NCBI RefSeq assembly: GCF_000214375.1 | Contig: NC_015578.1 | Location: 3,844,001-3,908,000 of the forward strand | Reading direction: 5' to 3' | Source: Treponema primitia ZAS-2 | GTDB lineage: Bacteria; Spirochaetota; Spirochaetia; Treponematales; Breznakiellaceae | DNA: 64,000 bases | In this document: one piece after another, positions 11,761-33,910 of the stretch | Numbering within the stretch: position 1 is the first letter of the stretch | Layout of the letters: every line of letters begins with the position of its first letter | Position numbers and translations under genes: made by a program | Notes under the pieces: model-generated | What the model was told of the DNA's origin: nothing | The model's input: only the letters and a program-made list of their open reading frames with translations | Databases searched by the model: none

Positions 11761-13287
11761 ATGAAAAGAACAATTTTGTTGTGTGGAATCTTGTCGATAG
11801 CAATGCTTACAGGTATTACCGGATGTAAAGCAAAAACTGCGGCGGAAACTTCATCCACCCCGACCAAGACTGAACTGGTTTATGTGGAAAGCACAGATAT
11901 TTCTACAATGGATCCCCGGAACGCTACGGGGACCGTCACAGCCGGCATATTGGCAAACGTTTTCAGCAGCCTGGTAAAGACCGATGAAAACGGCACTATA
12001 CTGCCGGATTTAGCCGAATCCTGGAAAAATATAAATGACCTTACCTGGGAATTCAAGTTGCACGATGGGATCAAATTTCATGACGGTTCCCAGTTGACTG
12101 CCGAGGACGTAAAGTATACTATAGATACCATCAAAGATAAGAATAATAAATTCAGGCTGGCATCGGACTTTTCATTCATGGATGTAGAGGTTGTAAACCC
12201 CCTTACCCTGAATATCATTACCGACGGCCCCTTCCCCGAAATACTGTTGCGTCTTAACTATGTAAAGATACTGCCCAAAGCATACGTTGAAAAGGTTGGA
12301 AACACTGAATTCGCAGCTAAACCTATTGGTTCGGGCCCCTTCAAATTCGTGGAATGGCGCAAGGACGACCGGGTTATTCTGGAGGCTAACCAAGACTACT
12401 TTGGGAAAAAACCGATTATACAAAAGGCAACCATGAGAGTAATACCCGAATCGGCCGCCAGGATAGCCGCTCTGGAATCCGGGGAAGTGGATATTATTAC
12501 TAAAGTGGAAACCAGTCAGATTTCGCGGCTTCAGGGATCTTCAAGCTATACCGTTACAAGCGGCCCCACCACCCGGGTTATGTATTTTGGTATCAACACT
12601 TTAAAAAAAGGCCCCCTTCAGGATAAGCGGGTAAGGCAGGCTTTAAACTACGCCATAGACAAGCAGGCTCTCATAACCGGTGTGCTTGATAATTTTGGCA
12701 AACAGCTAGCCACAATTTCTACGCCGGAATACCGTGGTTTTGATCCTTCAATTACCCCTTATGAATACAATCCGGCTAAAGCAAAAGAACTGCTGGCTGC
12801 GGCGGGCTATCCCAATGGTTTAAACCTGGAAATATCCACCACATCCGGTTTCTTAAATGGATCCGATTTTGTACAAGCCTTCGCTTCCCAACTGAAGGAC
12901 GTCGGAGTCAACGCTACGATTCTTGAAGAAGACGGAACCGTCAGAAATGAAAAAATCATTAAAGCTACCATTTCGGATTTGTATTTCTTTGGGTTTGGCG
13001 GACCCTATTCAAGTATGGATAATCTCGGAAAAAATTCATTTGGAACCGGAGAACGTTATTCAACCTATAACAATCCGGAATTCGATGCCCTGCGGAAAGG
13101 CGCCGGCGCCGCAATTGACACAAATGAAGCTAATAAACTGTATTCCCAGCTTCAGGCTTACATAAAAGAAGATGCTCCGGCTATTTTCAGTCACCAGCAA
13201 TACGGCATTTATGCCATTAATACCCGGCTCAAAGACTGGAAGCCCAGGACCGACGAAATGATTGTGATCAATGACGCCCATTTCTAA
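11761..13287 (+). CDS. dppA: Peptide-type ABC transporter substrate-binding lipoprotein
   Basis: Family 5 extracellular solute-binding protein (DppA/OppA/NikA fold), which captures a peptide, metal-chelate or similar ligand outside the membrane. 508 residues. Signal peptide with lipobox TGITGC (Cys 22). The family signature appears as ELVYVESTDISTMDPRNATG, then LAESWKNINDLTWEFKLHDGIKFHDGSQLTAEDVKYT, IGSGPFKFVEW and VRQALNYAIDKQALI. Start ATG 11761 is fixed by AAAAGGAG seven bases upstream. It is the first gene of a nine-gene operon. The ligand cannot be read from the sequence; downstream enzymes hint at an amide- or peptide-like compound. Confidence 0.93.
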   Translation: MKRTILLCGILSIAMLTGITGCKAKTAAETSSTPTKTELVYVESTDISTMDPRNATGTVTAGILANVFSSLVKTDENGTILPDLAESWKNINDLTWEFKLHDGIKFHDGSQLTAEDVKYTIDTIKDKNNKFRLASDFSFMDVEVVNPLTLNIITDGPFPEILLRLNYVKILPKAYVEKVGNTEFAAKPIGSGPFKFVEWRKDDRVILEANQDYFGKKPIIQKATMRVIPESAARIAALESGEVDIITKVETSQISRLQGSSSYTVTSGPTTRVMYFGINTLKKGPLQDKRVRQALNYAIDKQALITGVLDNFGKQLATISTPEYRGFDPSITPYEYNPAKAKELLAAAGYPNGLNLEISTTSGFLNGSDFVQAFASQLKDVGVNATILEEDGTVRNEKIIKATISDLYFFGFGGPYSSMDNLGKNSFGTGERYSTYNNPEFDALRKGAGAAIDTNEANKLYSQLQAYIKEDAPAIFSHQQYGIYAINTRLKDWKPRTDEMIVINDAHF

Positions 13288-13303
13288 TTGAAGGAGATTC
13301 CTG

Positions 13304-14221
13304 TTGAAGGCGTACCTTTTTAAAAAGATAACTCAGATGGTAGTTGTCCTTTTGGGTATTACCCTGGTGGTTTTTTCAATACTCCATCTGGTGGGAGATC
13401 CGGTACAGTTGTTGCTGCCTCCCAGCGCTTCACAGGAAAATGTCGAACAGTTACGGGAAGAAATGGGGTTTAACGATCCTTTACTGGTACAGTACGGCCG
13501 TTTTCTCTCCGGAATTTTCCGGGGAGATTTCGGCATGTCTTACAATTACAACCAACCCGCATTGAGCGTGGTACTTGAAAGGGTACCGCAAACCTTAAAG
13601 CTTGCGGGGATAGCTTTTTTAATATCCCTGGTCATAGGCATACCCACAGGGGTTCTGTCGGCAATAAAACAGGACACCGTGACCGATGCGGTTATACGAG
13701 TTCTTTCTTTTCTTGGACAATGTACGCCGTCTTTTCTTTTAGGCATCATGATGATGCTGCTTTTTTCGGTTAAATTAAAATGGCTGCCCACATCAGGAAA
13801 CGATGGCTGGAAAAATATAATCATGCCATCCTTAACCCTGGGCCTGTTTTCCACCGCAACAATCATACGGCTTCTTAGATCCAATATGATAGAGGTGATG
13901 GAAAAAGAATTTATAGAAGTGGCCCGCGCCAAGGGTCTCAAATATCGCCTTATCGTTTGGAAGCACGGTTTTAAAAATGCATTCAGTTCGGTCATGACAG
14001 TGCTGGGAATGCAGATTGTCTCGCTAATGGGCGGCGCGGTGATAATTGAAACCGTATTTGCCTGGCCGGGCATAGGCAGGCTGGCGGTTCAGTCAATCAG
14101 GAACAACGATTTTATGGTAACCGAAACAATAGTCATTCTCATGGCTTCTTGTTTTGTAGTTATGAACCTGATTGTGGATCTTCTTTATGCAGTAATCAAT
14201 CCCCGAGTAAAGGTTCAATAA
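13304..14221 (+). CDS. dppB: ABC transporter permease, DppB type
   Basis: First membrane component of the importer, 305 residues with six helices. It starts at TTG 13304, seven bases after AAGGAG. It has the family's N-terminal helix and large loop (QLREEMGFNDPLLVQYGRFLSGIFRGDFG) and the cytoplasmic EAA-type coupling loop EFIEVARAKGLKYRLIVWKHGFKNA. The C-terminal helix pair ends DLLYAVINPRVKV. It lies one base before dppC (TAAAATG), so translation is probably coupled. Confidence 0.94.
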   Translation: MKAYLFKKITQMVVVLLGITLVVFSILHLVGDPVQLLLPPSASQENVEQLREEMGFNDPLLVQYGRFLSGIFRGDFGMSYNYNQPALSVVLERVPQTLKLAGIAFLISLVIGIPTGVLSAIKQDTVTDAVIRVLSFLGQCTPSFLLGIMMMLLFSVKLKWLPTSGNDGWKNIIMPSLTLGLFSTATIIRLLRSNMIEVMEKEFIEVARAKGLKYRLIVWKHGFKNAFSSVMTVLGMQIVSLMGGAVIIETVFAWPGIGRLAVQSIRNNDFMVTETIVILMASCFVVMNLIVDLLYAVINPRVKVQ

Positions 14222-14222
14222 A

Positions 14223-15062
14223 ATGTTAAAAAGCCTTTTAAAAAGCAAAACCGGCCTTCTGGGGGCGGCGCTGGTAATACTGGTGATCTGCATTGCGCTT
14301 TTTGCGAATATTATTGCGCCTGCGGACCCAAACAAACAGAACCTTTTAAATAAGTATAAACCGCCCGCCTGGTACGAAGGGGGCAGCATAGATCACCTCT
14401 TAGGAACCGATTCTTTAGGCCGGGACGAACTCTCCAGGCTTGTACACGGCAGCCGTTATACCCTGATGGTAGCTTTTGTCGGCACCATAGTAGCGGGCGC
14501 TGCGGGCGTTTTGTTAGGTTCTCTCAGCGGGTATTATGGCGGAATTATTGACGTGGCGATCATGCGGATTGCGGAAATCCAACTGGCCTTTCCTTTTGTG
14601 CTTCTTGCCCTGTTTATTGCGGCGGTTTTAGGGCAGGGCCTTGGCAATGTCATATTCATTGCCGGACTTTCAGGCTGGGTGCGGTACGCCCGAGTTGTCC
14701 GGGGTGAATTTATGGCTATAAAAGAAATGGAATATATTGAAGCGGTTAGGGCTTTAGGCTGCAGAAATATGCGTATTATTTATCATCATATCATGCCGAA
14801 TGTGATCAGCCCTATCATTGTTATCGGAACCCTGGAAATAGCTAAAATCGTGCTTATGGAAGCATCTTTAAGTTATCTTGGAGTAGGAATCCCAATCATC
14901 ATTCCTACCTGGGGACGTATGCTTTCGGAAGCGCAAGTGGCCATATTCAACGCGCCTTGGCTTTCCGCGCTACCCGGCTTATTTATACTTTTAACGGTCC
15001 TTGGGGTAAATCTTTTCGGCGACTGGCTTCGGGATTACCTGGATCCGAGACTGGATGTATGA
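14223..15062 (+). CDS. dppC: ABC transporter permease, DppC type
   Basis: Second membrane component, 279 residues. The short N-terminal OppC_N-type helix region is followed by HLLGTDSLGRDELSRLVHGSR, the characteristic DppC entry motif. EMEYIEAVRALGCRNMRIIYHHIMPN is the EAA coupling loop that contacts the ATPases. It ends GDWLRDYLDPRLDV as DppC proteins do. Its stop overlaps the dppD start (ATGA at 15059-15062). Confidence 0.94.
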   Translation: MLKSLLKSKTGLLGAALVILVICIALFANIIAPADPNKQNLLNKYKPPAWYEGGSIDHLLGTDSLGRDELSRLVHGSRYTLMVAFVGTIVAGAAGVLLGSLSGYYGGIIDVAIMRIAEIQLAFPFVLLALFIAAVLGQGLGNVIFIAGLSGWVRYARVVRGEFMAIKEMEYIEAVRALGCRNMRIIYHHIMPNVISPIIVIGTLEIAKIVLMEASLSYLGVGIPIIIPTWGRMLSEAQVAIFNAPWLSALPGLFILLTVLGVNLFGDWLRDYLDPRLDV

Positions 15063-16072
15063 ACGGGCAAACGATGGACGAAGAAAACCTAAAAGATAAA
15101 GACCTTATTTCTGTGGAAGATCTGAGCGTACTATTCCGTACAAAGTATGGAAGCGCCAAGATAATCAACAACATCAGTTTTAAACTGAAGCCGGGAGAAC
15201 GGCTGGGCATAGTCGGGGAATCCGGCTCAGGAAAAAGCATTACCGCCCGGGCAATTATGGGCATACTCCCTAATCTGGATAAGGAAGTCAAGGGGCGCAT
15301 TGTTTTTCAGGGAAGGAACCTGCTGGAACTCGGTGAAAAAGAAATGCGGGACTTAAGAGGGAACAGGATGGCCATGATTTTTCAGGAGCCTATGATCTCA
15401 TTGGATCCTCTGTTTTCAATAGAAAACCAACTTATAGAAGCATTGAACGCCCATAAAAAAACATCCGCCACGGAAGCAAGAAAAAAAATTCTGGACTTGC
15501 TGACCATAACCGGCATTAAGCAGCCGGAAATAAGAATGAAACAATACCCCTTCGAATTTTCGGGAGGGATGCGCCAGCGGGTAATGATCGCCATGGCGCT
15601 GCTCTGCAATCCGGAGCTATTGGTGGCGGATGAGCCTACTACTGCGCTTGATGTGACTATACAAGCGCAAATCATGGATCTGCTGCATAAAATAAACAAG
15701 GAATTCGGAACGGCTATAATATTGATTACCCATGATTTAGGCCTTGTGTATGAACAGGTAGACCAGGTAGCGGTTATGTACGCAGGAAGCCTGGTGGAAA
15801 AAGGGCCCGTGGAAAAAATATTCAGCAATCCCCTTCATCCGTATACCAGAGGGCTCTTCAATGCCATGCCTTCAATCGAAGAAAAGCGGGAAAAGCTCGA
15901 AACCATAGAAGGGAATGTACCCAGCCTGTACGAGCTGCCGCCGGGCTGCGCTTTTGCCCCCCGCTGCGGCAAAGCCCGGGATTTCTGCCATTCAAAAATA
16001 CCCCCAATTAAAAACATTGGCAGCCAGGAAGTTCAATGTTGGCTTTACGCGAACCAGGAGCATGCTCCGTGA
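15059..16072 (+). CDS. dppD: ABC transporter ATP-binding protein, DppD type
   Basis: ATPase of the importer, 337 residues. Walker A is GESGSGKS, the Q-loop lies in MIFQEPMISLDPLF, the ABC signature is FSGGMRQRVMIAMAL, Walker B is LLVADEPTTALD and the H-loop is ITHDL. The C-terminal oligopeptide/dipeptide extension has a cysteine cluster (PGCAFAPRCGKARDFC plus a later QCW) of the type that binds a 4Fe-4S cluster in DppD/DppF-class ATPases. The start at ATG 15059 overlaps dppC by four bases; the alternative is ATG 15074. Confidence 0.94.
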   Translation: MNGQTMDEENLKDKDLISVEDLSVLFRTKYGSAKIINNISFKLKPGERLGIVGESGSGKSITARAIMGILPNLDKEVKGRIVFQGRNLLELGEKEMRDLRGNRMAMIFQEPMISLDPLFSIENQLIEALNAHKKTSATEARKKILDLLTITGIKQPEIRMKQYPFEFSGGMRQRVMIAMALLCNPELLVADEPTTALDVTIQAQIMDLLHKINKEFGTAIILITHDLGLVYEQVDQVAVMYAGSLVEKGPVEKIFSNPLHPYTRGLFNAMPSIEEKREKLETIEGNVPSLYELPPGCAFAPRCGKARDFCHSKIPPIKNIGSQEVQCWLYANQEHAP

Positions 16073-16899
16073 ACAGTGAAAAGAAAGATATAATCATGGA
16101 AGCCCAGGATCTTACTAAATACTTTCCCCTGAGACGAGGCCTCTTCAGCGGGAGCGGCGAATCCATTAAAGCGGTAGAGGGGGTAAATCTTCAGATAAAT
16201 CCCGGAGAAACCTTGGGTATAGTAGGCGAATCCGGATGCGGCAAATCAACACTGGTACGGATGCTGCTGGGTTTACTCAAACCCACACGGGGCAAGGTGA
16301 TATTCCAGGGAAAGGATATTTCATCCATGGATCAGGATGCATTACGCAGGATGCGCCGGGACATGCAGGTTATTTTCCAAGATCCCTATGCGGCGCTTAA
16401 CCCCAGACACCGGATCAGGGATATGCTGATTGAACCGCTCCTGATACATAAGATCTCAGAAAAAAAAGAAGCCTTAGCGCAAGCTGGCGAGATGCTGGAA
16501 AAAGTGGAACTCTCCAGGGAGAGCCTTTCAAAATTCCCTCATGAATTTTCCGGAGGACAACGCCAACGTATATGTATCGCCAGGGCTCTTATGACAAAAC
16601 CAAAGCTTTTAATATGCGATGAATGTGTTTCGGCTTTGGATGTTTCAATACAGGCTCAGGTATTGAACCTGTTAAACAAGGTGCAGCGAGAATTAGGCTT
16701 GACCATGGTATTTGTGTCCCATGATCTCCGGGTTATACACCATATGTGCCGTAATATCATTGTTATGTATATGGGGTGCGTAGTTGAAAACGCCAACAAG
16801 GATGAACTTTTTACAAACCCCCAAGATTCGTATACCAAAACCCTGCTTCAGGCAATTCCAAAGGCTATTATCACACAAAGAGGAGCCAATGATGAATAA
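16069..16899 (+). CDS. dppF: ABC transporter ATP-binding protein, DppF type
   Basis: Second ATPase, 276 residues. Walker A is [10 protein letters not shown], the Q-loop [15 protein letters not shown], the signature [15 protein letters not shown], Walker [13 protein letters not shown] (Cys in place of the usual Pro after DE), and the H-loop VSHDL. GTG 16069 overlaps the dppD stop (GTGA) and has AGGAG eight bases upstream, so it was preferred to the upstream ATG. The C-terminal cysteine motif seen in dppD is absent and the protein ends early, at [15 protein letters not shown]. It overlaps the next gene by 11 bases. Confidence 0.92.
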
Positions 16900-17875
16900 A
16901 AATGAGCGAATAAAAGCGGCAATAACGGGCGAAAAACCGGACACCATTCCCTATTCTTTTTGGGCCCACATGCCGGCTATTGATCGGGATCCGCCGCTAA
17001 TCGCGGAAAAAACCTGGGAATTCTTTAACCGATACAATCTGGATCTGGTTAAAACAATGAATAACGGCATGTACAGCGTGGAAGACTTTGGTTGCGAAGT
17101 TGATTTTTCGGAAATAGAAAACGGTGGGGTCGCTAAAATAAAAACTACGCCAATAAACAGGGCGGAAGATTTTGAAACCATCAAGGCCCTGGGAAGAAAA
17201 GCCCTGGATCGGGAACTCGAATACCTGTCAAGGCTTATGGAAAAAATTCAAAATCAGGCACCGGTTGTCTTTACCGTATTCAGTCCCCTTACAACAGTGA
17301 ACAAGCTCTGCAACGGAAGGATCCTTGAATTTATAAAAGCTGGTGTGGGAAAATCTGTACATAAGGCCCTGGAAGAAATTACCGAAGTAACAAAATTGTT
17401 AGTGGAAGAATCCATAACCAAGGGGGCTTCGGGGATATTCTTTGTATCCCAAATGGGAAATTACAATATTATGACGGAAGAACTATACCGGGAGTATGGC
17501 AAAACCTATGACGAGGAAATAATAAAAGCTTCAAAAGGGTGGTGCAATGTTATTCATGCCCATGGGGAACAAATAATGTATACTGTTTTCAAAGACTACC
17601 CTGGGGAAATACTCAATTATCATGTATGGGAATCTCCTCCGGCAATAGAAGAAGCAATGAAAAGTGGAAAATGTATACTGGGGGGGCTTAAACGCATGGA
17701 TATTACAAACAGGAAAAAAGATGCTGTTGAAAAACAGATCCATGACACTATTACAAAGCTTAATGGCAGAAAACTCATCTTAGCCCCTGGTTGCGTTATC
17801 CGTTATCCTGTATATGAAGAAATGCTTGATTTTATATATAATACCAAGGAAAGTGAAGAAGCAAAACTATTTTAA
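16889..17875 (+). CDS. UroD/MtaA-family protein (methyltransferase-like)
   Basis: 328 residues of the uroporphyrinogen decarboxylase superfamily. The real UroD substrate motif (PxWxMRQAGR) is absent; instead the N-terminus reads ERIKAAITGEKPDTIPYSFWAHMP. The family's methyltransferase branch (MtaA/MtbA) binds zinc through HxC...C; here the corresponding sites read VIHAHGE and ILAPGCVI, so one Cys is His. It is therefore probably a corrinoid- or thiol-linked methyl- or alkyl-transfer enzyme or a related lyase, not a haem enzyme. ATG 16889 (or 16892) follows AGAGGAG. Its place between importer and hydrolases suggests it acts on the imported compound, which is inference. Confidence 0.75.
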   Translation: MMNKNERIKAAITGEKPDTIPYSFWAHMPAIDRDPPLIAEKTWEFFNRYNLDLVKTMNNGMYSVEDFGCEVDFSEIENGGVAKIKTTPINRAEDFETIKALGRKALDRELEYLSRLMEKIQNQAPVVFTVFSPLTTVNKLCNGRILEFIKAGVGKSVHKALEEITEVTKLLVEESITKGASGIFFVSQMGNYNIMTEELYREYGKTYDEEIIKASKGWCNVIHAHGEQIMYTVFKDYPGEILNYHVWESPPAIEEAMKSGKCILGGLKRMDITNRKKDAVEKQIHDTITKLNGRKLILAPGCVIRYPVYEEMLDFIYNTKESEEAKLF

Positions 17876-17898
17876 GGTTTGATTATAAGGAGGACTTT

Positions 17899-18948
17899 AT
17901 GCCACAGGTTATTAATCTTAAAGGGACGCACTACGAACAAGGGGTACAGGAGGGCAAGCTTCTTGCAAAAGAAATTCAGGTAAACTGCGATTTTGTGAGA
18001 AAGAGCCTGGAAGAAAAAAAAATCAACAAAAGTAAATATGCTGATTTTTTAGCGCAAAACGCCGCTTTCATGAAGGAAAACCAAAATGATTTATACTCGG
18101 AGATGGAAGGAATTGCCAAAGGATCTGGTATTTCATGGCAAGAAATTTTAGAGCTGAATATCCCAGCTTATTTCATGTCATCCAGCTTTACACAGGAATG
18201 CAGCCAGCTTCTAGTCCGAGGAAAGGCTACGGCGGATGGTCATACATATATTATTAAGAACAGGGATCTGAGCTGGCGTCTCGACCAGGCGCTAATACAC
18301 CGGGAATATCCTAATGGCCTTAAAGTAACGGAATCAAGCGGCATGGGCACTCTCACATATCCGGGAGCGGGAATAAACAGCTATGGTCTTGCAGCGTCAA
18401 CAACAGGATCATGGCCAAAAAGCATAAAACCGGATCTGAGCTTGGCATCAAAAACCTCTATATTTATAAACATCAGGTTGATTTTAGATCAATGCAAGAC
18501 GGCCAAGGAAGCTGTAGAATATGTAAAATCCAGCCCGCGAATGAATGGCATTAACCTTCTGATTGCAGACAGCAATGATGCCTTTGCGGTAGAAGTAACT
18601 AAAGATGAGATTGATGTACAGGCAGCCGGCGATGATGGTATTTTATTCCGGACAAATCATTATATGTCAGAAAAATTTTCTCCTCTTAATGATAAAAATT
18701 ATGCTTCGACATTTTACAGAGCCGAACGGATCAAGGAATTAACAGAAAAAATAGCAGGAAAATTCCGTTTTCAGGATCTCTTCAAAATTATGTCGGATCA
18801 TGAAAATGGGATAAACAGCATATGCAGACATCCGCAGGGGGATATAAAAACCTCGACCATATCTACTACGCTGGTTTCAATAGAAGATAAAGAAGTATGG
18901 CTCACACCTGGTAACCCATGTGAACATATACAGCAGTCATCATTATAA
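17899..18948 (+). CDS. C45-family autoproteolytic acyltransferase/hydrolase
   Basis: 349 residues of the Ntn-hydrolase group that includes acyl-CoA:6-aminopenicillanic acid acyltransferase and related amidases. Such proteins cut themselves before an internal cysteine that then becomes the N-terminal nucleophile. The candidate is Cys101 in FTQECSQLLVRGKATADGHTYIIKNRDLSW; the rest matches the family's pattern of AxDGxxxxxRNxDW. The residue before Cys is Glu rather than the usual Gly. N-terminal motif LKGTHYEQGVQEGKLLA is also typical. It likely hydrolyses or transfers an amide-linked acyl group in the cytoplasm (no signal peptide). Start is set by AAGGAGG. It is part of the dpp operon. Confidence 0.85.
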   Translation: MPQVINLKGTHYEQGVQEGKLLAKEIQVNCDFVRKSLEEKKINKSKYADFLAQNAAFMKENQNDLYSEMEGIAKGSGISWQEILELNIPAYFMSSSFTQECSQLLVRGKATADGHTYIIKNRDLSWRLDQALIHREYPNGLKVTESSGMGTLTYPGAGINSYGLAASTTGSWPKSIKPDLSLASKTSIFINIRLILDQCKTAKEAVEYVKSSPRMNGINLLIADSNDAFAVEVTKDEIDVQAAGDDGILFRTNHYMSEKFSPLNDKNYASTFYRAERIKELTEKIAGKFRFQDLFKIMSDHENGINSICRHPQGDIKTSTISTTLVSIEDKEVWLTPGNPCEHIQQSSL

Positions 18949-18965
18949 GAAGCAAGAGGTTGAAT

Positions 18966-20156
18966 ATGGAAACTATCAAAACATATGTAAAACGGCGCAT
19001 AGAGAAATTCCAAACCGCCTTAAAAGAGGCGGACATTCCCGGCGCGCTCTTGGCAAAACCCGAGGATGTCTTCTATTTGAGCAATTTTAATCCGGTGCTA
19101 AATAGTCATCCGGTGTATCTTTTAATACAGCCGGAAGAAGAGCCTTGCCTATTAGTACATTGTTTACGGTATAATCATGCCAGAGAGGAATCCGTCACGG
19201 ACAATATCCGCTGTTACGCAAAATGGGGAGATGCCCCATCTATGGCGCCGACGGCGGATGAAGCAATAGAAAAGCTCCTCATCCCGCGAAAATTTCGACG
19301 GTTTGCATTTGAAATGGATTATGTTTCAGTGAATTTTCATCGCGGGATTTGTAAAAGGCTGGGTATTGAAGAAAGCATTGATGTAACGCCACTGCTTAAC
19401 CCTCTAAAAATAATCAAAGACCCTTGGGAAATAGACTGTATCAGGGGAGCGGCGGCCTTAGTCGACAGGGGAGTGGAACGTACTATAGAAGCCCTTGATC
19501 AGGGACTTTCCGAAGCGGAAGCCTGTACAGAAGGCCAGTATAGCATGAGGAAACTTTGGAGCAGTAAATATTCCGACAGAGAAGTTTCAGGTTTTGGCAC
19601 CTCCGAAGGAGGGATGATAGACAGTCTTTTTGCTTGGTCCCTCACTAATGAACATATTGCATATGGCACGGATTGTCCCAGAAAAATAGTTCCTGAATCA
19701 GGCGATATTTCATTATCCATGGCTTGGGCAAGTCTGGGCGGATATCATGCTGAAAATGAACGCAGTTTACAAGTCGGAATTCTGATAGAAACAAGAGAGA
19801 ACGCTTACGAAGCTATGCTTGCGGCCAGAAAGTCAATATTTGACAGATTGAAACCCGGCGTAATTTTTGAGGACCTCTATGCAGCGGCAATAGAGGAATT
19901 CAAATCACGGGGGTTTGAAGATATAATTCCGGGACGTGTAGGCCATGGGGTAGGGCTTTCCGCTCATGAATTCCCTTCAGTAGCTCCCGGAAACAAATTG
20001 GCGCTGGAAAAGAACATGATATTCACGGTCGAACCGGGTATAATGGATTTAAAATGGGGAGGCGCACGACATTCCGACACCGTACTTATCACCGATGACG
20101 GCTATGAATCTCTTACGCAGTTACCAAATGGAAAAATTTCAATAAAAGCCGGGTAA
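18966..20156 (+). CDS. M24-fold (creatinase/prolidase-like) protein, degenerate metal site
   Basis: 396 residues with the N-terminal creatinase domain (residues 1-125) and the C-terminal pita-bread fold of family M24B. Conserved scaffold motifs are present: LKIIKDPWEIDCIRGAA, GRVGHGVGLSAHEFP and MIFTVEPGIM. Metal ligands of the peptidases are mostly lost. The first Asp (normally in lvDlG) falls in GDISLSMAWAS, the second (sDitRT) reads AENERS, and the last Glu (RiEDt) is Ser in RHSDTV. The usual substrate His before them appears as Tyr. Creatinase shows similar metal-ligand loss, so a metal-free C-N hydrolase or a non-catalytic role is possible. Start ATG 18966 has AAGAGG six bases upstream. 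Confidence 0.8.
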   Translation: METIKTYVKRRIEKFQTALKEADIPGALLAKPEDVFYLSNFNPVLNSHPVYLLIQPEEEPCLLVHCLRYNHAREESVTDNIRCYAKWGDAPSMAPTADEAIEKLLIPRKFRRFAFEMDYVSVNFHRGICKRLGIEESIDVTPLLNPLKIIKDPWEIDCIRGAAALVDRGVERTIEALDQGLSEAEACTEGQYSMRKLWSSKYSDREVSGFGTSEGGMIDSLFAWSLTNEHIAYGTDCPRKIVPESGDISLSMAWASLGGYHAENERSLQVGILIETRENAYEAMLAARKSIFDRLKPGVIFEDLYAAAIEEFKSRGFEDIIPGRVGHGVGLSAHEFPSVAPGNKLALEKNMIFTVEPGIMDLKWGGARHSDTVLITDDGYESLTQLPNGKISIKAG

Positions 20157-23005
20157 TGAATTACTTGTTGTCCGTATACTTATATCATTGGTTTGCGCTT
20201 TTTTTTGATTCCTTTCCGGAATGGCTGAAAACAGTCAAACCCCAGGGAATCTTGGGAGATCTCGTCCGCCACATCGAAGGGACGGATGAGGCAGCCCTCC
20301 GCTTGGAATATGATGCCCTTTTTAAGGGAACTAATGCCCATATAAGGATTCCCCTTTGGGCTTCGGCAATCCAGGGACAGACACTCATGGATAAGACCAC
20401 TGCCGGTCTTATTGCGCGGTACCGCCAAAACGGGTATACCTCGGTTGCCATGGACGGAAACCCGCCGGACTATATCGGCCAGCAGCTTCGGTTTATGGAA
20501 TACCTTTCGGCCTGCGCAATCACTGATCCGGAGGCGACTGGGGCTGAAGCGGAACAGATCCGCTCCGTCTACCTTGCCGGGACTGTTCGGGCGGTGCGGG
20601 AGGGTGTTGAGACCTATGCCCGGCATGCGCTTTTTCCGGCGGTACTACAGGCCCTTGATACGTTTGTCACATCGCCCCAGGTTTTTGAGGATATTGAAAT
20701 CCAGGGTCTGGAAGAACAGCTCTCTCGGCTTTGGTGCTACGGGAATATTCAAACCGGAAAGAATGTGTCCCTACCCCCGGAACCGTCCCGGATTATTCTT
20801 ACTGCGGGGATCAACAACTGCGGCGGGAAGTGCGTGATCCGTGCGGAAACCCAATATGGTTGTATTCTGCGGATCATGGGCAGTTTCGATCCCCAGGACC
20901 CCCAACTCCGCCCCTGTGTACGTATCCGGGGCTACCAGGGAACCTTCCTCCACCGTGAACGACTGCGCTATCCTCTTAGACGGGTCGGCAAGCGCGGGGA
21001 GGGAAAATTCCGGCGGATAAGTTGGCAAGAAGCGGTGGAAGAGATTTCCCGGGAATGGGTCCGTATCCGAGATACCTACGGCGCCGCTTCACGGTATGTT
21101 AATTATTCTGTCGGGGTTGCTTCTGTCATGCGCCCCGACAAGCTTGCTATGCGGCTCTTAAATGCCGATGGCGGTTTTTTATCCTATTACAATTCTTATA
21201 GTAGCGCCTGTACCCGGTGGATAACACCGTACATCTACGGGGATAACTTGAGTGGCAACAGCCTGGATGATGTCCTCAATGCCAAACTTATCATCCTCTG
21301 GGGGCACAATCCAGTGGAAACCATCTTTGGAAACCATCGCAATTATTACCTTGCCCAGGCCAAAGCCCAAGGCATCAAAATCATAGTTATCGATCCCCGG
21401 TTCAGCGATTCCGCAGCCCACTATGCCGACCAATGGATAGGTATCCGCCCCTCCACGGACAGCGCCCTTGCGGATGGTATGGCCTTTGAAATATGGAGCC
21501 TGGGCTTGCAGGATCAGGCCTTTATGGACCAGCGCTGCCTGGGCTTTGATGAGGCCCACATGCCTGACGATGTCCCCAAAAATGAATGTTATCGGGCCTA
21601 TCTTTTTGGAGAAAAGGACGGCATCCCCAAAACCCCGGAATGGGCGGAATCAATTACCGCAGTTCCTGCGGACACCATCCGCACCCTGGCCCAGGAATAT
21701 GTCGCCGCTAAACCCGCCTGTCTGCTTCCCGGATTTGGTATCCAGCGCACCGGGAACGGCGAACAGACGGTACGCAGCCTGGCCTTGCTTGCCTGTCTGA
21801 CAGGAAATGTGGGGATATCCGGAGGCGGGGCGGCCGGAACAGGGGACATCGCCAAACACCAGAACCCGGCGCTTCCCCTGTTGGATTTTCCTTACCAAGG
21901 AAAAATACCCTGCTTTCTTTGGACCCAGGCGGTAGAGAGGGGCCCTTCCATGGGAGCGGAAGATGGGGTCCTTGGGGTGGACCGGCTTCACACAAATATT
22001 AAAATGATCCTGAACCTAGCGGGAAATACCCTGGTTAACCAACATTCGGATATTAACGCTACCAAAAAAATTCTTGAGGATGAAACCAAGTGTGAGTTCA
22101 TCCTTTGCTCAGATCTCTTCATGACCTCCAGCGCCATGTTTGCAGATATTCTGCTTCCCGGGGCTAGCGTTTTTGAGACTGACAATATTACTGCTCCTTG
22201 GGGAGGATTTGGGGATTATCTTTTAAGGAACAACCAAGTGATAGACCCCCTCTTTGAAGGCCGGTTTGAATATGAATGGCTTCGGGAGGTGGCGGAGAAA
22301 ATTGGCTGCCGGGAAGCTTTTGATGGGGGGTATCGTTCTATGGGGGAATGGCTCCAGGGGCTCTACGAAGATACCAGAAAAACCGAACCGGAATTGCCGA
22401 ATTTTGAAACCTTTAAAAAAACAGGTATCTATCGCTATAAAAATAACCCGGTTTATATTGCCTATGCAAAACAGCGAGCAGACCCGGCTACGGCGCTATT
22501 TGAGACCCCTTCGGGGAGGATCGAAATTTTCTCCCCCCGGCTCTACGGTCTGCATAAAAAAGACGTTCCAGGGATACCGGCCTATGTGCCCTGCCCTGAA
22601 GGTCCCGGGGATCCCCTGCGGGAACAGTACCCGCTTCAACTTATCGGGTGGCACACCAAGCGGCGCACCCATACGATCCATGATAATAATGAAGGCATGG
22701 AAGGTATGGAGCCCCAGCGTCTCTGGATACATCCCCAGGATGCGGACGTTCGGGGCCTTTCCGAAGGCGATCTGGCGGATATTTTTAATGCCCGGGGGAA
22801 GATCTGTATCCCGGTCCATGTCACCGATAGGATCATGGCCGGGGTTATTGCTCTCTCCCAGGGCGCCTGGTACCAGCCCGACTCGGAGGGCGTTGACCGC
22901 CGAGGCAGCATTAACGTCCTCACCTCAGCGGACCATCCCACTCCCTTGGCAAAGGGAAACCCCCAACACACAAACCTGGTGGAAGTGGTTAAATCCCAGG
23001 CTTAA
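20156..23005 (+). CDS. TorD chaperone-DmsA-like molybdoenzyme fusion
   Basis: A 949-residue protein. Residues 1-190 are a TorD/DmsD-type maturation chaperone: ALRLEYDALFKG, IPLWAS, and PPDYIGQQLRFMEYLSA correspond to the family's EY-LF and DHI-L-FM motifs. Residues about 210-949 form a bis-MGD oxidoreductase of the DMSO-reductase family: a cluster region with Cys222, Cys226 and Cys254, RYPLRRVGKRGEGKFRRISWQEA, a Ser349 at the molybdenum-ligand position (NSYSSACTRW), LIILWGHNPVET, GFGIQRTGNGEQ, and a C-terminal dinucleotide-binding domain from about 820. The first Cys of the usual C-x3-C-x3-C is Gly218. There is no Tat signal and no DmsB/DmsC neighbour, so it is probably cytoplasmic and soluble. 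TAATG overlap with the M24 gene. Substrate unknown. Confidence 0.88.
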   Translation: MNYLLSVYLYHWFALFFDSFPEWLKTVKPQGILGDLVRHIEGTDEAALRLEYDALFKGTNAHIRIPLWASAIQGQTLMDKTTAGLIARYRQNGYTSVAMDGNPPDYIGQQLRFMEYLSACAITDPEATGAEAEQIRSVYLAGTVRAVREGVETYARHALFPAVLQALDTFVTSPQVFEDIEIQGLEEQLSRLWCYGNIQTGKNVSLPPEPSRIILTAGINNCGGKCVIRAETQYGCILRIMGSFDPQDPQLRPCVRIRGYQGTFLHRERLRYPLRRVGKRGEGKFRRISWQEAVEEISREWVRIRDTYGAASRYVNYSVGVASVMRPDKLAMRLLNADGGFLSYYNSYSSACTRWITPYIYGDNLSGNSLDDVLNAKLIILWGHNPVETIFGNHRNYYLAQAKAQGIKIIVIDPRFSDSAAHYADQWIGIRPSTDSALADGMAFEIWSLGLQDQAFMDQRCLGFDEAHMPDDVPKNECYRAYLFGEKDGIPKTPEWAESITAVPADTIRTLAQEYVAAKPACLLPGFGIQRTGNGEQTVRSLALLACLTGNVGISGGGAAGTGDIAKHQNPALPLLDFPYQGKIPCFLWTQAVERGPSMGAEDGVLGVDRLHTNIKMILNLAGNTLVNQHSDINATKKILEDETKCEFILCSDLFMTSSAMFADILLPGASVFETDNITAPWGGFGDYLLRNNQVIDPLFEGRFEYEWLREVAEKIGCREAFDGGYRSMGEWLQGLYEDTRKTEPELPNFETFKKTGIYRYKNNPVYIAYAKQRADPATALFETPSGRIEIFSPRLYGLHKKDVPGIPAYVPCPEGPGDPLREQYPLQLIGWHTKRRTHTIHDNNEGMEGMEPQRLWIHPQDADVRGLSEGDLADIFNARGKICIPVHVTDRIMAGVIALSQGAWYQPDSEGVDRRGSINVLTSADHPTPLAKGNPQHTNLVEVVKSQA

Positions 23006-23156: not shown

Positions 23157-23873
23157 CTAAGAAGACAACCGGGACACCGCCTCCTTGTCGCAAATAACGG
23201 TAAAGTTGGGATGTAGTTTCAAAATACTAGCGGGAAACGCCGTATCTACCGGGCTCTCAAAAAAATGCTTTACTGTTTCTGCCTTATTTAGTCCGTTTAC
23301 AATCATCACTAACTGGCGAACCTTCATAAGACTTGCCGCCCCCATGGTTACAAACCATTCAGGGACCGGATCATTTCCGCACAATGCGGTTAACGAGCTA
23401 TACCAGGAATATTCCCGGGTTATGGGGATACGGTAGATCTTCTCCTCAAATTTGACCGCATAGGGCATATTCCCGCAAAAATGACCATCGGCGCCCAGGC
23501 CGATAAGCATGAAATCAAGTCCGCCGGCGTCATCAATGGCCTGATCCTGGGTAGTATAATTTTCACAGGTCAGGGGATGAATTTGACTTTCGGCTATCCC
23601 GGCGGGTTGAAAATACAACTGGTCTAATTCCCGCAGTGTATACCCCTTGGACTCGCCGGCAATGGGGACTTCATCAAAATTATAATAATGGACGTTGCGG
23701 TAATTATCCGGGGCCGCGTTGATGTGCCGGGTAACGATGCTATAGGTTTCCCTGGGGGAATTCCCTGCGGTAATCGCTATGTTTACCCGCCGGTCCCGGG
23801 CCATGGCCGCCAAAAGCAAAGCTGCCGCCCGTTGGGATAATGCTTCATAGGAATTTTCAAAGTACAGTTTCAT
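23157..23873 (-). CDS. Glucosamine-6-phosphate deaminase-like protein
   Basis: 238 residues of the NagB/6-phosphogluconolactonase sugar-isomerase fold. Motifs: INIAITAGNSPRETY (sugar-phosphate-binding loop), YYNFDEVP (the FDEV/Y catalytic segment), FMLIGLGADGHFCGNMP (NagB has GxGxDGHIAFNEP) and the VNGLNKAETVKHFFE C-terminal part. It would convert glucosamine-6-phosphate to fructose-6-phosphate plus ammonia, or isomerise or deaminate a related sugar phosphate. The GHFCGNMP variant departs from the canonical lid-histidine region, so the exact substrate is open. It is the last gene of the sigma-54-driven PTS operon, 11 bp after the GH1 gene. Confidence 0.82.
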   Translation of the reverse strand: MKLYFENSYEALSQRAAALLLAAMARDRRVNIAITAGNSPRETYSIVTRHINAAPDNYRNVHYYNFDEVPIAGESKGYTLRELDQLYFQPAGIAESQIHPLTCENYTTQDQAIDDAGGLDFMLIGLGADGHFCGNMPYAVKFEEKIYRIPITREYSWYSSLTALCGNDPVPEWFVTMGAASLMKVRQLVMIVNGLNKAETVKHFFESPVDTAFPASILKLHPNFTVICDKEAVSRLSS

Positions 23874-23884
23874 TGTTTATTTCC

Positions 23885-26189
<2,305 letters not shown>

Positions 26190-26190
26190 T

Positions 26191-27429
26191 TCAGGCAGCC
26201 GCCGCGCCCTGTTTCTCTGCGGCTAAATCATCGTGATCAACCTTTCGCAGGAAAGGAATATACATAAGAATTATCACCACTAACTGGATAATCTGTATCA
26301 GTGCGCCACGCCAGCCGGCGACCATAAAGCCCTGGACAACCGGGGGAATCATGCGGGAAACGTTCAGGCTGATAATGGGCAGGAAGCCGATAAGGGTGGC
26401 AAAGTACGCAATAAGAATGGAGACCACCGCGGAAAAGGTCATGGGGATAAGGAGCCAGGGATTCATCACCATGGGTATCCCGAACTTCATGGGTTCGGTG
26501 ATGCCGAAGAAACTGGGGAATATGGCGATCTTTCCGATAGTCTTAAGGCGGCCGCTCCGGCAAGAGAACAGGAGGAGTAGCGCCAGGGCCAGGGCACGGG
26601 GTCCCTTAAAAGAATCCATGAAGAACTGGTTCAGAATGAATTCCGGCTTAAGCCCGGCGGCAACAGCTTCCATATTGGCGTAAGCCTGGGTGGCGAACAG
26701 GGCGGTCAGGATGCTGGAGGTAACCAGGCTTCCGTGGATACCAAAGAACCAGAGCAATTCTGCCAGCATCATCAGAAGTACCGCCGACCAGATGGAACTG
26801 CCCAGGCTTTGTAAAGGCCGTTGAAGGAAGGTATAGACAATGTCGTGCATATTCCCGTAGGGGGTCAGCTTGAACAGGACATTGAGGACCAGGGCAGTAA
26901 CCAGCAGAATAAAGGCTGGCACAATATCCTCAAAGGATTTGGCGACTGCACGGGGGACCGCTTCGGGCATACGGAAAAAGATCCGCTTTTCTATTAAAAA
27001 GGCATAGAGCCGGGCGGAAAACATGGCGACGATGATCCCGACGAACATACCTTTGGAACCAAGATAAGAAACCTCAATGGCCTGAATTTTTTCAAAGGAA
27101 CGAATCGGGGTAAGAATAAAGAAACAGGCCATGGCCATGATCACCGAGGTAATCACGTCCTGTTTACATTCCTTTGCCATTACCGCCGCCAGGGCGATAA
27201 CGGTATACACCGTTATCAGGTTACTGGCGATCTGGGTACCCAGAAGGCAGACCGCGCGGACCGATGCCGGAACAAAGGGAAGGCCGGCGAAAATCGTCGC
27301 AAAACTACCCACCAAACTGATGGGCATAATGGCCATCATCCCATAACAAATAACCTTGACATACCGGTTTTCAGAAAATTTACCGACACCCATGGTCAGT
27401 TTCGGCAGTACTGAATCCTTAAAACCCAT
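26191..27429 (-). CDS. PTS IIC permease, lactose/cellobiose family
   Basis: 412-residue membrane permease with about ten helices that moves a beta-disaccharide across the cytoplasmic membrane for phosphorylation by IIB. Family motifs: VICYGMMAIMPISLVGSF near residue 28, FFGIHGSLVTSSIL, and FGITEPMKFGIPMVMNPWLLIPM with the conserved NxxE-like GITEP substrate-site motif. Slightly shorter than typical CelB (~430-450). Start follows GGAGGAACGATT. Preceded by IIB with 23 bases between them. Confidence 0.93.
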   Translation of the reverse strand: MGFKDSVLPKLTMGVGKFSENRYVKVICYGMMAIMPISLVGSFATIFAGLPFVPASVRAVCLLGTQIASNLITVYTVIALAAVMAKECKQDVITSVIMAMACFFILTPIRSFEKIQAIEVSYLGSKGMFVGIIVAMFSARLYAFLIEKRIFFRMPEAVPRAVAKSFEDIVPAFILLVTALVLNVLFKLTPYGNMHDIVYTFLQRPLQSLGSSIWSAVLLMMLAELLWFFGIHGSLVTSSILTALFATQAYANMEAVAAGLKPEFILNQFFMDSFKGPRALALALLLLFSCRSGRLKTIGKIAIFPSFFGITEPMKFGIPMVMNPWLLIPMTFSAVVSILIAYFATLIGFLPIISLNVSRMIPPVVQGFMVAGWRGALIQIIQLVVIILMYIPFLRKVDHDDLAAEKQGAAAA

Positions 27430-27452
27430 AATCGTTCCTCCTCTAAAATGAA

Positions 27453-27749
27453 TTATTTTATGGCCTGAAGAACATCCTTCAGTACCTTTTCTCCGTTCAT
27501 CATGCCGTAATCCTGCATATTGATAACATTCACATAAATAGCGGGATATGCTGCGGCAACCTTGTCTTTCATGTAACTAACCTGGGGGCCCAGCAGAATC
27601 GCGCTGCACCCTTCGCTATGGGAACCGAGTTCACTTACCGGATGGGCGGCGATTTCAATGTCCATGGACTGAACCGCAGCGGCCTTCTTCATCCGTTCCA
27701 CCAGCATACTGGTGGACATACCCACCGCGCAGGCTAAAATTATTTTCAT
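27453..27749 (-). CDS. PTS IIB protein, lactose/cellobiose family
   Basis: 98-residue soluble phosphocarrier. The phosphocysteine is Cys7 in ILACAVGMSTSMLVERM, the classic IIB-Cel motif (CxxGMSTS). It passes phosphate from IIA to the sugar on IIC. Start ATGA overlaps the IIA stop by four bases. Confidence 0.95.
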   Translation of the reverse strand: MKIILACAVGMSTSMLVERMKKAAAVQSMDIEIAAHPVSELGSHSEGCSAILLGPQVSYMKDKVAAAYPAIYVNVINMQDYGMMNGEKVLKDVLQAIK

Positions 27750-28075
27750 ACCCTTCCTCCTAAACCCTGTTTATGGATAAGCGCATAGAGATCACAAAAT
27801 TCCCGTGCCATATCCAGAATCGTAACCGCCGCCATTAAATGATCCTGAGCGTGGACCATGATCATCCCCATGCCCTGATCCGGATCGTCCAGGGTCATCT
27901 GGAGTATTTCGGTTTGGTGCCTGTGGGCAATGGTCATGGCCTCATCACTTTCCTGTAACTCCTGTTGAGCCTGATCCGGCTTCCCTTCCTTTGCCCGGGA
28001 TATGGCAGTCATGGCATGGCTTTTTGCGTTACCCGCATTGACAATGAGTTGCATTGCTTCTTCTTCAAAACCCAT
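27746..28075 (-). CDS. PTS IIA protein, lactose/cellobiose family
   Basis: 109-residue helical IIA. His75 in MIMVHAQDHLM is the phosphorylation site of the Lac/Cel class. Asn and Gln residues in the N-terminal LIVNAGNAKSHAMTAI helix also match. First gene of the operon; GTAGGAGG lies nine bases before the start and the sigma-54 promoter is directly upstream. It receives phosphate from HPr, whose gene is 3 kb away in the same cluster. Confidence 0.95.
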   Translation of the reverse strand: MGFEEEAMQLIVNAGNAKSHAMTAISRAKEGKPDQAQQELQESDEAMTIAHRHQTEILQMTLDDPDQGMGMIMVHAQDHLMAAVTILDMAREFCDLYALIHKQGLGGRV

Positions 28076-28102
28076 ATCACCGTACCTCCTACCCTATCTA
28101 TA

Positions 28103-28118
28103 AGCAAAATGTGTGCCA
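28103..28118 (-). promoter_or_regulatory. Sigma-54 promoter of the PTS operon
   Basis: On the minus strand, TGGCAC-N5-TTGCT matches the -24/-12 consensus fully, including the invariant GG and GC ten bases apart. Flanks read GTGTTTTGGCA and TTTTGC, shared with the HPr promoter at 31012. It points at the IIA gene. Confidence 0.92.
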
Positions 28119-28151
28119 AAACACACCCCATTTTAGTCGAAAATTCCCCTA

Positions 28152-28189
28152 TATGTGTTTTATTTTTGGTAGAATCTTTAAAACACATA
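28152..28189. promoter_or_regulatory. Inverted repeat, likely activator binding site
   Basis: Perfect 11-bp arms TATGTGTTTTA (28152-28162) and TAAAACACATA (28179-28189), 16 bases apart, lying 34-71 bases upstream of the -24 element of the PTS operon and just before the activator gene. A GTGTTTT half-site recurs beside both sigma-54 promoters. A natural enhancer site for the LevR-like protein (inference). Confidence 0.65.
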
Positions 28190-28212
28190 ATCTTAAAATA
28201 AAACAGTTTCCC

Positions 28213-28241
28213 TTGACAACCGAGGAATCCAGTTTTATGCT
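28213..28241 (+). promoter_or_regulatory. Sigma-70-like promoter of the regulator gene
   Basis: TTGACA (28213-28218), 17-base spacer, TATGCT (28236-28241). The ATG is nine bases after the -10 with no ribosome-binding site, so the transcript should be nearly leaderless. Confidence 0.7.
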
Positions 28242-28250
28242 AAACCAACT

Positions 28251-31004: not shown

Positions 31005-31011
31005 CGTGTTT

Positions 31012-31027
31012 TGGCATGAATTTTGCA
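31012..31027 (+). promoter_or_regulatory. Sigma-54 promoter of ptsH-ptsI
   Basis: TGGCAT-N5-TTGCA, a near-perfect -24/-12 element starting 7 bases after the regulator stop and 40 bases before the HPr start. The wider motif GTGTTTTGGCA-N4-TTTTGC is the same as in the PTS operon promoter. Confidence 0.9.
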
Positions 31028-31066
31028 TAGTATTAGAGAGAACAAAACACTCGAGGAGGCTTTTTG

Positions 31067-31333
31067 ATGGTAAGCGCAGATATAGAGGTTACCAATCGTA
31101 TCGGGTTCCATGCCCGTCCGGTATCCCTACTTATTGATACGGCGCGGAAATTTTCCAGTACCGTAAAAGTAAGCAAGGGAGACAAAACGGCGGGGACAGA
31201 CTCCATGGTAGCCATGCTCAAACTCCAGGTTAAACAGGGAGATATGATAAGCATTTCTGCGGAGGGGGACGATGAAGAAGCGGCCCTTGAGAGTCTTTCG
31301 GAATTAGTAAAATCAAAGTTTGGTGAAGATTAA
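31067..31333 (+). CDS. ptsH: Phosphocarrier protein HPr
   Basis: 88-residue general PTS protein. His15 in NRIGFHARP takes phosphate from enzyme I. Ser46 in GTDSMVAML lies at the position of the HPr-kinase site, though the surrounding sequence differs from the Gram-positive KSIMGVM. ATG 31067 is preferred over TTG 31064 because GAGGAGG lies about eight bases upstream. It overlaps ptsI by 14 bases. Expression from a sigma-54 promoter would make it a system-specific HPr rather than a constitutive one. Confidence 0.94.
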   Translation: MVSADIEVTNRIGFHARPVSLLIDTARKFSSTVKVSKGDKTAGTDSMVAMLKLQVKQGDMISISAEGDDEEAALESLSELVKSKFGED

Positions 31334-33076: not shown

Positions 33077-33883
33077 TTATGGAATCTTTAAATTATTTAA
33101 TATCGGAATTATCAGATCTTTCCATTTTTCATATCCAGCTTCGATTAAATGGATACCATCGCCTGAAACATAGTCTTCATTTAATTCACCGCTGCTTGAT
33201 AATACTTTATTTATATCTACAAATATCAAATTATTCTCTTCAGAAAATTTAATTAAATACTCATTTAATTTATCAATTTCATTATTTATTTTTTTCCAGT
33301 CATTGTGATTTTTTGATATTTTTAATGTAGATTGAATTATCACTTTTATATCGTGATCTTCAAGATTTTTTACAATGGTTTTATAATTTTCTAATATTGT
33401 TTCAACATCTATTCCACCAAATATATCATTAGTTCCGCCCATAATAAAACACAATTTTGGTTTTAGTAAATATATATCGTCCAACCGAGATAGAAATCTT
33501 TTTGTTACATCCCCTGGAATTCCTAAATTTACTACATCATTTCTATTGAGTAATTTATTCCATTCACCACCATATGTATGAGAGTCCCCGAACATTACTA
33601 TATGATATTCCTCAGGCTGCCGGACCAATGTTTTTATATTTATATTACTATAACCAGGGGACCATGGCTCATAAGGTTTTTCCATATTATGAATTTTAAC
33701 CAATCCTATTTTTATTAATAATCTTTCAGGGATTTTATAATATATTGAAATAATTATAATAAATGCTAAGGATATTATGTTTGTAATAATAAGTTTGGTG
33801 TTTGGTGTTTGGTGTTTGGTGTTTGGTGTTTGGTGTTTGGTGTTTGGTGTTTGGTGTTTGGTGTTTGGTGTTTGGTGTTTCAT
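33077..33883 (-). CDS. SGNH/GDSL-type hydrolase with heptad repeat N-terminus
   Basis: About 268 residues from ATG 33883. The first ~33 residues are HQTPNTK repeats encoded by a 7-base tandem array. Then comes one hydrophobic helix (LAFIIIISIYY) and an SGNH esterase domain: VMFGDSHTYGG (block I Ser), NLGIPGDVT (block II Gly), MGGTND (block III Asn) and SGDGIHLIEAGY (block V Asp/His). It is probably membrane-anchored, with the hydrolase outside, removing acyl groups from a cell-surface carbohydrate or lipid. Strongly AT-rich compared with its neighbours, suggesting transfer. The start is doubtful because the promoter -10 overlaps ATG 33883; translation may begin within or after the repeat. Confidence 0.75.
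   Translation of the reverse strand: MKHQTPNTKHQTPNTKHQTPNTKHQTPNTKLIITNIISLAFIIIISIYYKIPERLLIKIGLVKIHNMEKPYEPWSPGYSNINIKTLVRQPEEYHIVMFGDSHTYGGEWNKLLNRNDVVNLGIPGDVTKRFLSRLDDIYLLKPKLCFIMGGTNDIFGGIDVETILENYKTIVKNLEDHDIKVIIQSTLKISKNHNDWKKINNEIDKLNEYLIKFSEENNLIFVDINKVLSSSGELNEDYVSGDGIHLIEAGYEKWKDLIIPILNNLKIP
33793..33880. repeat. Heptanucleotide tandem repeat, about 12.5 copies
   Basis: GTTTGGT (CCAAACA-type on the coding strand) repeated twelve times plus GTTT without a single mismatch. Since 7 is not a multiple of 3, a gain or loss of one unit shifts the frame of the hydrolase relative to any start codon before the repeat. Confidence 0.95.
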
Positions 33884-33910
33884 TCTATCAGAAAATATCC
33901 TTCTTGTCAA
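33882..33910 (-). promoter_or_regulatory. Promoter abutting the heptanucleotide array
   Basis: TTGACA (33910-33905), 17-base spacer, TAGAAT (33887-33882) on the minus strand. The predicted start of transcription (about 33875) is within the repeat array, so the array would form the 5' end of the mRNA. Confidence 0.6.

Follow-up and report, generated by a model that had tools for sequence, protein, structure and literature searches.

What does it mean when a maturation chaperone and the molybdoenzyme that it serves, normally separate proteins, are encoded as a single polypeptide? The question is raised by a gene in a 64,000-nucleotide stretch of the genome of the termite-gut spirochete Treponema primitia ZAS-2 (contig NC_015578.1, positions 3,844,001 to 3,908,000; hereafter the window), in which one intact plus-strand frame (20156-23005) runs without internal stop from an ATG at 20156 to the stop at 23005 and specifies a protein of 949 residues. 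We consider it probable that this protein is a cytoplasmic enzyme of the dimethyl sulfoxide (DMSO) reductase family, of the S-/N-oxide type and independent of twin-arginine translocation (Tat), to which a dedicated TorD/DmsD chaperone has been fused N-terminally in place of the Tat signal. Both domains come from known families; the combination in one chain is what is new.

A reading of the sequence alone had assigned the first ~190 residues to the TorD/DmsD family and the remaining ~740 to a DmsA-like bis(molybdopterin guanine dinucleotide) (bis-MGD) enzyme, and profile searches agree on both domains and, nearly, on where they end (Table 1). PF02613, the TorD/NarJ/DmsD chaperone family of Pfam, matches residues 34-134 with 45.2 bits, well over its cut-off of 22.2, so that the TorD profile match on which the sequence-only reading had staked its chaperone assignment is present, as it is in 12 of 12 fused proteins. 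A profile made from the fused TorD domains alone also finds crystal structures of the DmsD type (1s9u, 5.6e-7; 3efp, 3cw0 and 3u41, 1.3e-5). The catalytic part is matched by PF00384 at residues 269-715 and by PF01568 at residues 827-939 (Pfam), and TIGR02166 (dmsA_ynfE, DMSO/selenate reductase A subunit; NCBIfam) covers residues 212-946 with 852.7 bits, above the curated cut-off of 777.7; PF04879 reaches only 12.1 bits, which is under its cut-off. The YS pair that includes the Mo-ligand serine is kept across the fused proteins aligned.

Table 1. Features of the fused gene and its surroundings in the window, and the related TorD::AsrA fusions (L numbers are our own handles for loci in this and other genomes)
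Feature	Position	Strand	Basis
TorD/DmsD-family chaperone domain, all-helical, residues 1-194 (helices 2-194)	20156..20737	+	PF02613, AlphaFold2, DmsD-structure profile match
Linker, residues 195-211 (~17 residues), at the site that a Tat signal peptide would occupy ahead of mature DmsA	20738..20788	+	AlphaFold2
DmsA-type bis-MGD molybdoenzyme domain, residues 212-946	20789..22993	+	TIGR02166, PF00384, PF01568, TorA 9h4t structural match
N-terminal Fe-S motif region, residues 218-254: G218, C222, C226, extra C236, C254	20807..20917	+	alignment
Ser349, aligned with Mo-ligand Ser147 of R. sphaeroides DMSO reductase	21200..21202	+	residue-level alignment to 1eu1
M24 (Xaa-Pro dipeptidase-like) peptidase	18960..20156	+	PF00557, PF01321
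C45-family autoproteolytic acyltransferase/hydrolase	17899..18948	+	NF040521, 215 bits
URO-D-fold protein (uroporphyrinogen decarboxylase family)	16889..17875	+	PF01208, 86.6 bits
Oligopeptide/dipeptide-type ATP-binding cassette (ABC) transporter: binding protein, two permeases, two ATPases	11761..16899	+	open reading frames, spacing; annotated by reading sequences
TorD::AsrA fusion	L051:7617-9596
TorD::AsrA fusion	L052:6449-8263
TorD::AsrA fusion	L053:1138-3027
TorD::AsrA fusion	L054:7093-8898
TorD::AsrA fusion	L055:6668-8527
TorD::AsrA fusion	L056:7465-9186
TorD::AsrA fusion	L057:979-2769

No signal peptide was detected on the window protein and no Tat motif at its N-terminus, arginine pairs occurring only at residues 275, 286, 836 and 915, which bears out the absence of a Tat signal noted from the sequence alone. 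Family searches of the whole genome, which is complete in one contig of 4,059,867 bases, did not find TatC, the same search being positive in 11 of 14 control genomes. Because both the signal peptide and TatC are missing, the view that the enzyme is permanently cytoplasmic, already put forward in the sequence-only reading, is well supported. A second, diverged TorD::DmsA copy lies elsewhere in the genome (L003:6172-9084; 970 residues, 45% identical to the window protein). The two fusions are its only PF02613 matches; the search thus gave no stand-alone member of the chaperone family. Two further PF00384 proteins are encoded, one of them containing a TGA in frame, which a selenocysteine enzyme would have; they fit the paralogous formate dehydrogenases known from T. 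primitia.

As the sequence-only reading had allowed, the fusion is present in other genomes: the same architecture was found in ten, all of them Bacillota and scattered among gut Firmicutes. PF02613 was detected in 0 of 40 relatives searched and in 10 of 247 Spirochaetota genomes drawn, fused only in T. primitia (both copies) and stand-alone in the rest. In the family to which G281, a Lachnospiraceae metagenome-assembled genome (MAG), belongs, it was found in 20 of 397 genomes, with six cases fused to a full DmsA, and among Bacillota in 79 of 398 genomes, of which three (G280, with two frames, G716 and G1042) carry fusions. The fusion is thus rare and scattered. On these counts vertical inheritance within the spirochete order is unsupported, and the distribution and the tree make it likely that the spirochete gained the fusion horizontally from Bacillota; a TorD query against plasmids gave no match. 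In the tree, which was built on the DmsA core, 11 main fusions, both spirochete copies included, form one clade with a support of 100/100 and a long stem, within which the window protein and L110 branch together (62% identity; branch support 88/78). The fusion at L103:4496-7573, which carries a canonical fused TorD (129.7 bits in one comparison, PF02613 at 104 bits in another), falls outside this main clade and groups with the Tat-bearing L101 and the unfused L109 at a moderate support of 92/90. This placement implies a second fusion event, L103 being apparently independent on the sequence tree, and a single origin of all fusions is unsupported. The L103 genome (G716) has two TatC genes, and a separate ferredoxin gene follows the fusion. 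At L109 itself, two genes that by eye resemble MttB-type trimethylamine methyltransferases (L109:2321-5180) are divergent from the unfused DmsA-type enzyme, a neighbourhood that suggests trimethylamine N-oxide reduction coupled to trimethylamine demethylation.

What distinguishes the two domains in the fused form? Mutagenesis of DmsD has shown that an Asp-His pair takes part in binding the signal peptide. In the window protein the Asp of this motif is kept and the His is replaced by Tyr106 of a PPDY sequence, and Tyr or Phe is found at this position in 10 of the 11 main-clade fusions. Of the other proteins compared, the four TorD::AsrA fusions all have the His, as do L103 and 14 of 17 stand-alone TorDs. 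The motif is common in the TorD family but not defining, three of the 17 stand-alone members also being without it. Loss of the His is in keeping with a chaperone that has ceased to read signal peptides, and this role is probably reduced in the fused TorD. At the same time the TorD part has 11 invariant columns in the main clade, among them Y52, W68, S70, D105 and G108, and its dN/dS is ~0.2 in two pairs, at high dS; by these comparisons the domain is under constraint, though it evolves faster than the enzyme. In the enzyme part, the four-Cys Fe-S motif is incomplete: CysA is Gly218, while CysB, CysC and CysD are kept and C236 is extra, and a new Cys within GC[IVM]L is found in most of the main clade. 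CysA is also absent from the unfused relatives L101 and L108. Since some unfused relatives are already Tat-less or without CysA, those losses may precede the fusion.

The AlphaFold2 model of the whole 949-residue chain has a mean predicted local distance difference test score (pLDDT) of 91.7 and a predicted template modelling score (pTM) of 0.92; the TorD helices (2-194) are mostly above a pLDDT of 85, and the linker has ~67 at residues 191-200 and 93 at residues 201-210. In a fold search, residues 208-949 match TorA (9h4t) with a Z of 43.7 and a root-mean-square deviation of 2.4 Å over 703 residues, MtsZ (7l5i) matches the enzyme part at a Z of 39.5, and DMSO reductases are also among the nearest solved structures, the alignments of the enzyme to PDB entries beginning at residues 208-213. 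The search with the whole model lists the enzyme fold only and is uninformative about the TorD domain. By our estimate, loose placement of a domain that makes up 20% of the chain would not allow a pTM of 0.92, so that TorD is probably predicted docked on the enzyme.

How, then, might the fusion work? The signal peptide and the enzyme core are both bound by TorD and DmsD, and TorD aids insertion of the Mo-bis(pyranopterin guanine dinucleotide) cofactor even when the signal peptide is missing; DmsA deprived of its signal shows activity in the cytoplasm, and NarJ serves NarG, a cytoplasmic enzyme that is never exported (PMC10609526). The explanation given in the sequence-only reading, that chaperone and enzyme are kept separate because the chaperone guards the Tat signal and, before export, the loading of the cofactor, is therefore too narrow, and a chaperone acting in cis without an export role fits known biology: once tethered, it can keep maturation and drop export. 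In line with the built-in cofactor insertion proposed in the sequence-only reading, we infer that maturation takes place in cis. Being tethered, TorD would be present at very high local concentration and would keep the newly synthesised apo-enzyme receptive to its cofactors, and the Fe-S cluster and bis-MGD would be loaded within the same chain. As nothing is exported, TorD would never have to dissociate and may remain docked on the mature enzyme.

Relatives provide possible partners for such an enzyme. In L004:2814-6326, L048:7980-11498 and L049:7340-10714 the chain is a triple fusion, DmsB::TorD::DmsA, of 1124-1172 residues, in which a DmsB-like four-cluster ferredoxin, the chaperone and the catalytic subunit are joined with TorD between the other two (the AlphaFold2 model of the L004 protein, with a pLDDT of 79 and a pTM of 0.77, is poor in the DmsB part and was not used). 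At L006 and L110 the gene order is DmsB-like protein, flavin adenine dinucleotide (FAD)/NAD(P)H oxidoreductase of the NirB/rubredoxin-reductase type and TorD::DmsA, with overlapping gene ends, and at L047 an FAD protein lies beside the fusion. A gene for MobA, the enzyme that makes MGD, adjoins the fusions at L006 (family match) and L048 (read by eye). Judged by gene content, these partners would describe a soluble NAD(P)H-driven reductase, in which electrons probably pass from NAD(P)H through the FAD oxidoreductase and the DmsB-like 4[4Fe-4S] protein to Mo.

TorD has been joined to other proteins as well. In Lachnospiraceae it is fused to an AsrA-like electron-transfer protein (TIGR02910 AsrA, 404 bits; Table 1), the neighbouring genes encoding a Tat-less DmsA-type enzyme, a DmsB-like ferredoxin and an AsrB-like flavoprotein; family searches did not find TatC in five of the genomes with TorD::AsrA. 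A 443-residue frame at L058:5791-7122 carries TorD in its C-terminal half (residues 246-437) and has an unassigned N-terminal half of ~240 residues. It is an evenly balanced proposition that anaerobes have repeatedly made TorD a permanent domain of cytoplasmic molybdo-reductases, at least twice on the catalytic subunit and again on the AsrA-type subunit, with the cofactor loaded in cis and the chaperone staying docked in a soluble NAD(P)H-driven reductase.

In the window, the fused gene is the last of a run that comprises the peptide-type ABC transporter, the URO-D-fold protein, the C45 hydrolase and the M24 peptidase. The transporter genes (11761..16899) are co-directional with short gaps, and the TAA of the M24 peptidase gene shares one base with the ATG of the fusion (TAATG at 20154-20158); the transporter and fusion genes likely form one operon. 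The GC content of the fused gene is 0.536, compared with 0.41-0.45 in the three genes before it, which may point to a recent assembly of the run. The neighbouring transporter hints at a small molecule, probably taken up through it, as the substrate of the window enzyme. Immediately upstream of the second fusion, a gene at L003:9096-9887 resembles histidine racemases of the CntK type, below the equivalog cut-off, and is adjoined by an amino-acid ABC transporter. On the other side of the window fusion, a sugar-uptake cluster at 23157-32948 converges on it, with genes that by eye are glucosamine-6-phosphate isomerase-like, 6-phospho-beta-glucosidase-like, phosphotransferase system (PTS) EIIC-like, LevR-like (a regulator) and PTS enzyme I-like. 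Farther on, at 33830-33910, a minus-strand frame begins with (KHQTPNT)n, so that a short DNA repeat in tandem marks the start of the gene.

Could the fused frame be an artefact, or its product something else? Separate TorD and DmsA genes are neighbours in operons at L072 and L105, so that a chance join is conceivable; but the frameshift or assembly join at ~20.7 kb that the sequence-only reading had raised against itself is excluded by the diverged copy elsewhere in this single-contig genome and by homologous fusions, aligned through the junction, in ten other genomes, and since the predicted fold is also continuous and of high confidence, the chance that an assembly error, a frameshift or read-through joined neighbouring genes is negligible. 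That the catalytic part truly belongs to the DmsA family would suit an exported, membrane-associated respiratory reductase of the DmsABC type with an N-terminal extension; yet there is no arginine pair before residue 275, no TatC in the genome and no DmsB or DmsC gene beside the fusion (DmsC judged from neighbouring open reading frames only), and we rejected this very improbable reading for want of a signal and of TatC. The main rival supposes that TorD now has no maturation role and is a structural or regulatory domain that serves, for example, in dimerisation or in docking a ferredoxin or flavoprotein donor. The altered Asp-His motif of 10 of 11 main-clade fusions, the faster divergence of the TorD part and its position between a DmsB-like domain and DmsA in three relatives are all in line with it. 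That five TorD residues are nevertheless invariant across the clade, that T. primitia has no stand-alone PF02613 chaperone to act in trans and that MobA genes lie beside two fusion loci make it unlikely in our view.

The mechanism that we favour is compatible with a narrower proposal on the substrate: like BisC or MtsZ, the enzyme would work in the cytoplasm as a reductase for detoxification or salvage, reducing sulfoxides or N-oxides after their import (e.g. methionine sulfoxide or a peptide with it), with TorD as its cis chaperone. Both T. primitia copies adjoin amino-acid or peptide ABC transporters; in the window (11761-20156) the transporter is accompanied by amide/peptide hydrolases, at L003 by a gene resembling amino-acid racemases. 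TorA, DMSO reductase and MtsZ are the solved structures closest to the enzyme; but this proposal, a tentative possibility, rests on the neighbourhood, and the relatives sit in NAD(P)H electron-transfer cassettes instead. Several observations also weigh against our own preferred explanation, a Tat-independent cytoplasmic reductase matured by its fused chaperone. No electron-transfer partner adjoins the window gene, and the best DmsB-like matches in the genome are under the cut-off and lie within ~4 kb of a formate-dehydrogenase gene. The absence of CysA makes the electron entry route uncertain, and the faster evolution of the TorD part also fits a relaxed role. TatC was not found in 8 of 10 main-clade genomes, a count that comes without a background rate and includes several possibly incomplete MAGs, but it is present in the other two, G281 and G579, and in G716 with its independent fusion; hence the fusion is not strictly tied to Tat loss, and a strict link, although considered, is not claimed.

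Among known systems, DmsABC of Escherichia coli with DmsD shares the catalytic family (TIGR02166), the chaperone family (PF02613) and the conserved Mo-ligand Ser, whereas the window protein unites chaperone and enzyme in one chain, has Gly for CysA and is without Tat signal, TatC and DmsC. BisC, MtsZ and TorA have the same fold, and the cytoplasmic BisC is a plausible functional analogue; however, the window enzyme scores 853 bits with TIGR02166 and 395 bits, below the cut-off, with the bisC_fam model, and the solved members have no fused chaperone. The Lachnospiraceae TorD::AsrA proteins likewise join TorD to a subunit of a soluble molybdoenzyme system, in genomes where no TatC was found, but there TorD sits on the electron-transfer subunit and not on the catalytic one. 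In NarX of Mycobacterium tuberculosis a truncated NarG part is followed by a NarJ-like segment and NarI. This protein, described as a ‘fused-domain nitrate reductase’ without nitrate reductase activity (PMC7759655), is a partial precedent in that nitrate-reductase components are fused in one chain, whereas the window protein has a complete molybdoenzyme, an N-terminal TorD and no NarI-like part. In NarGHI, too, a PF02613-family chaperone, NarJ, matures an enzyme kept on the cytoplasmic side (PMC10609526), but NarJ is separate and dissociates, and NarG belongs to another subgroup and is membrane-anchored. The statement in the sequence-only reading that no described system is built this way held in the literature searched, where no paper on a TorD::DmsA fusion was found and where the clade, the second origin, the triple fusion and the TorD::AsrA fusions were likewise not found, although the architecture may appear, uncommented, in public domain databases; a survey of the NarJ family (PMC4464133) makes no mention of fusion.

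As a natural chaperone-client fusion, the protein separates the two roles of the chaperone and fixes a 1:1 stoichiometry, and it could hold together a chaperone-client complex that is otherwise transient. It suggests a design for the expression of active bis-MGD enzymes without a separate chaperone, and it shows how molybdoenzymes persist in lineages without Tat.

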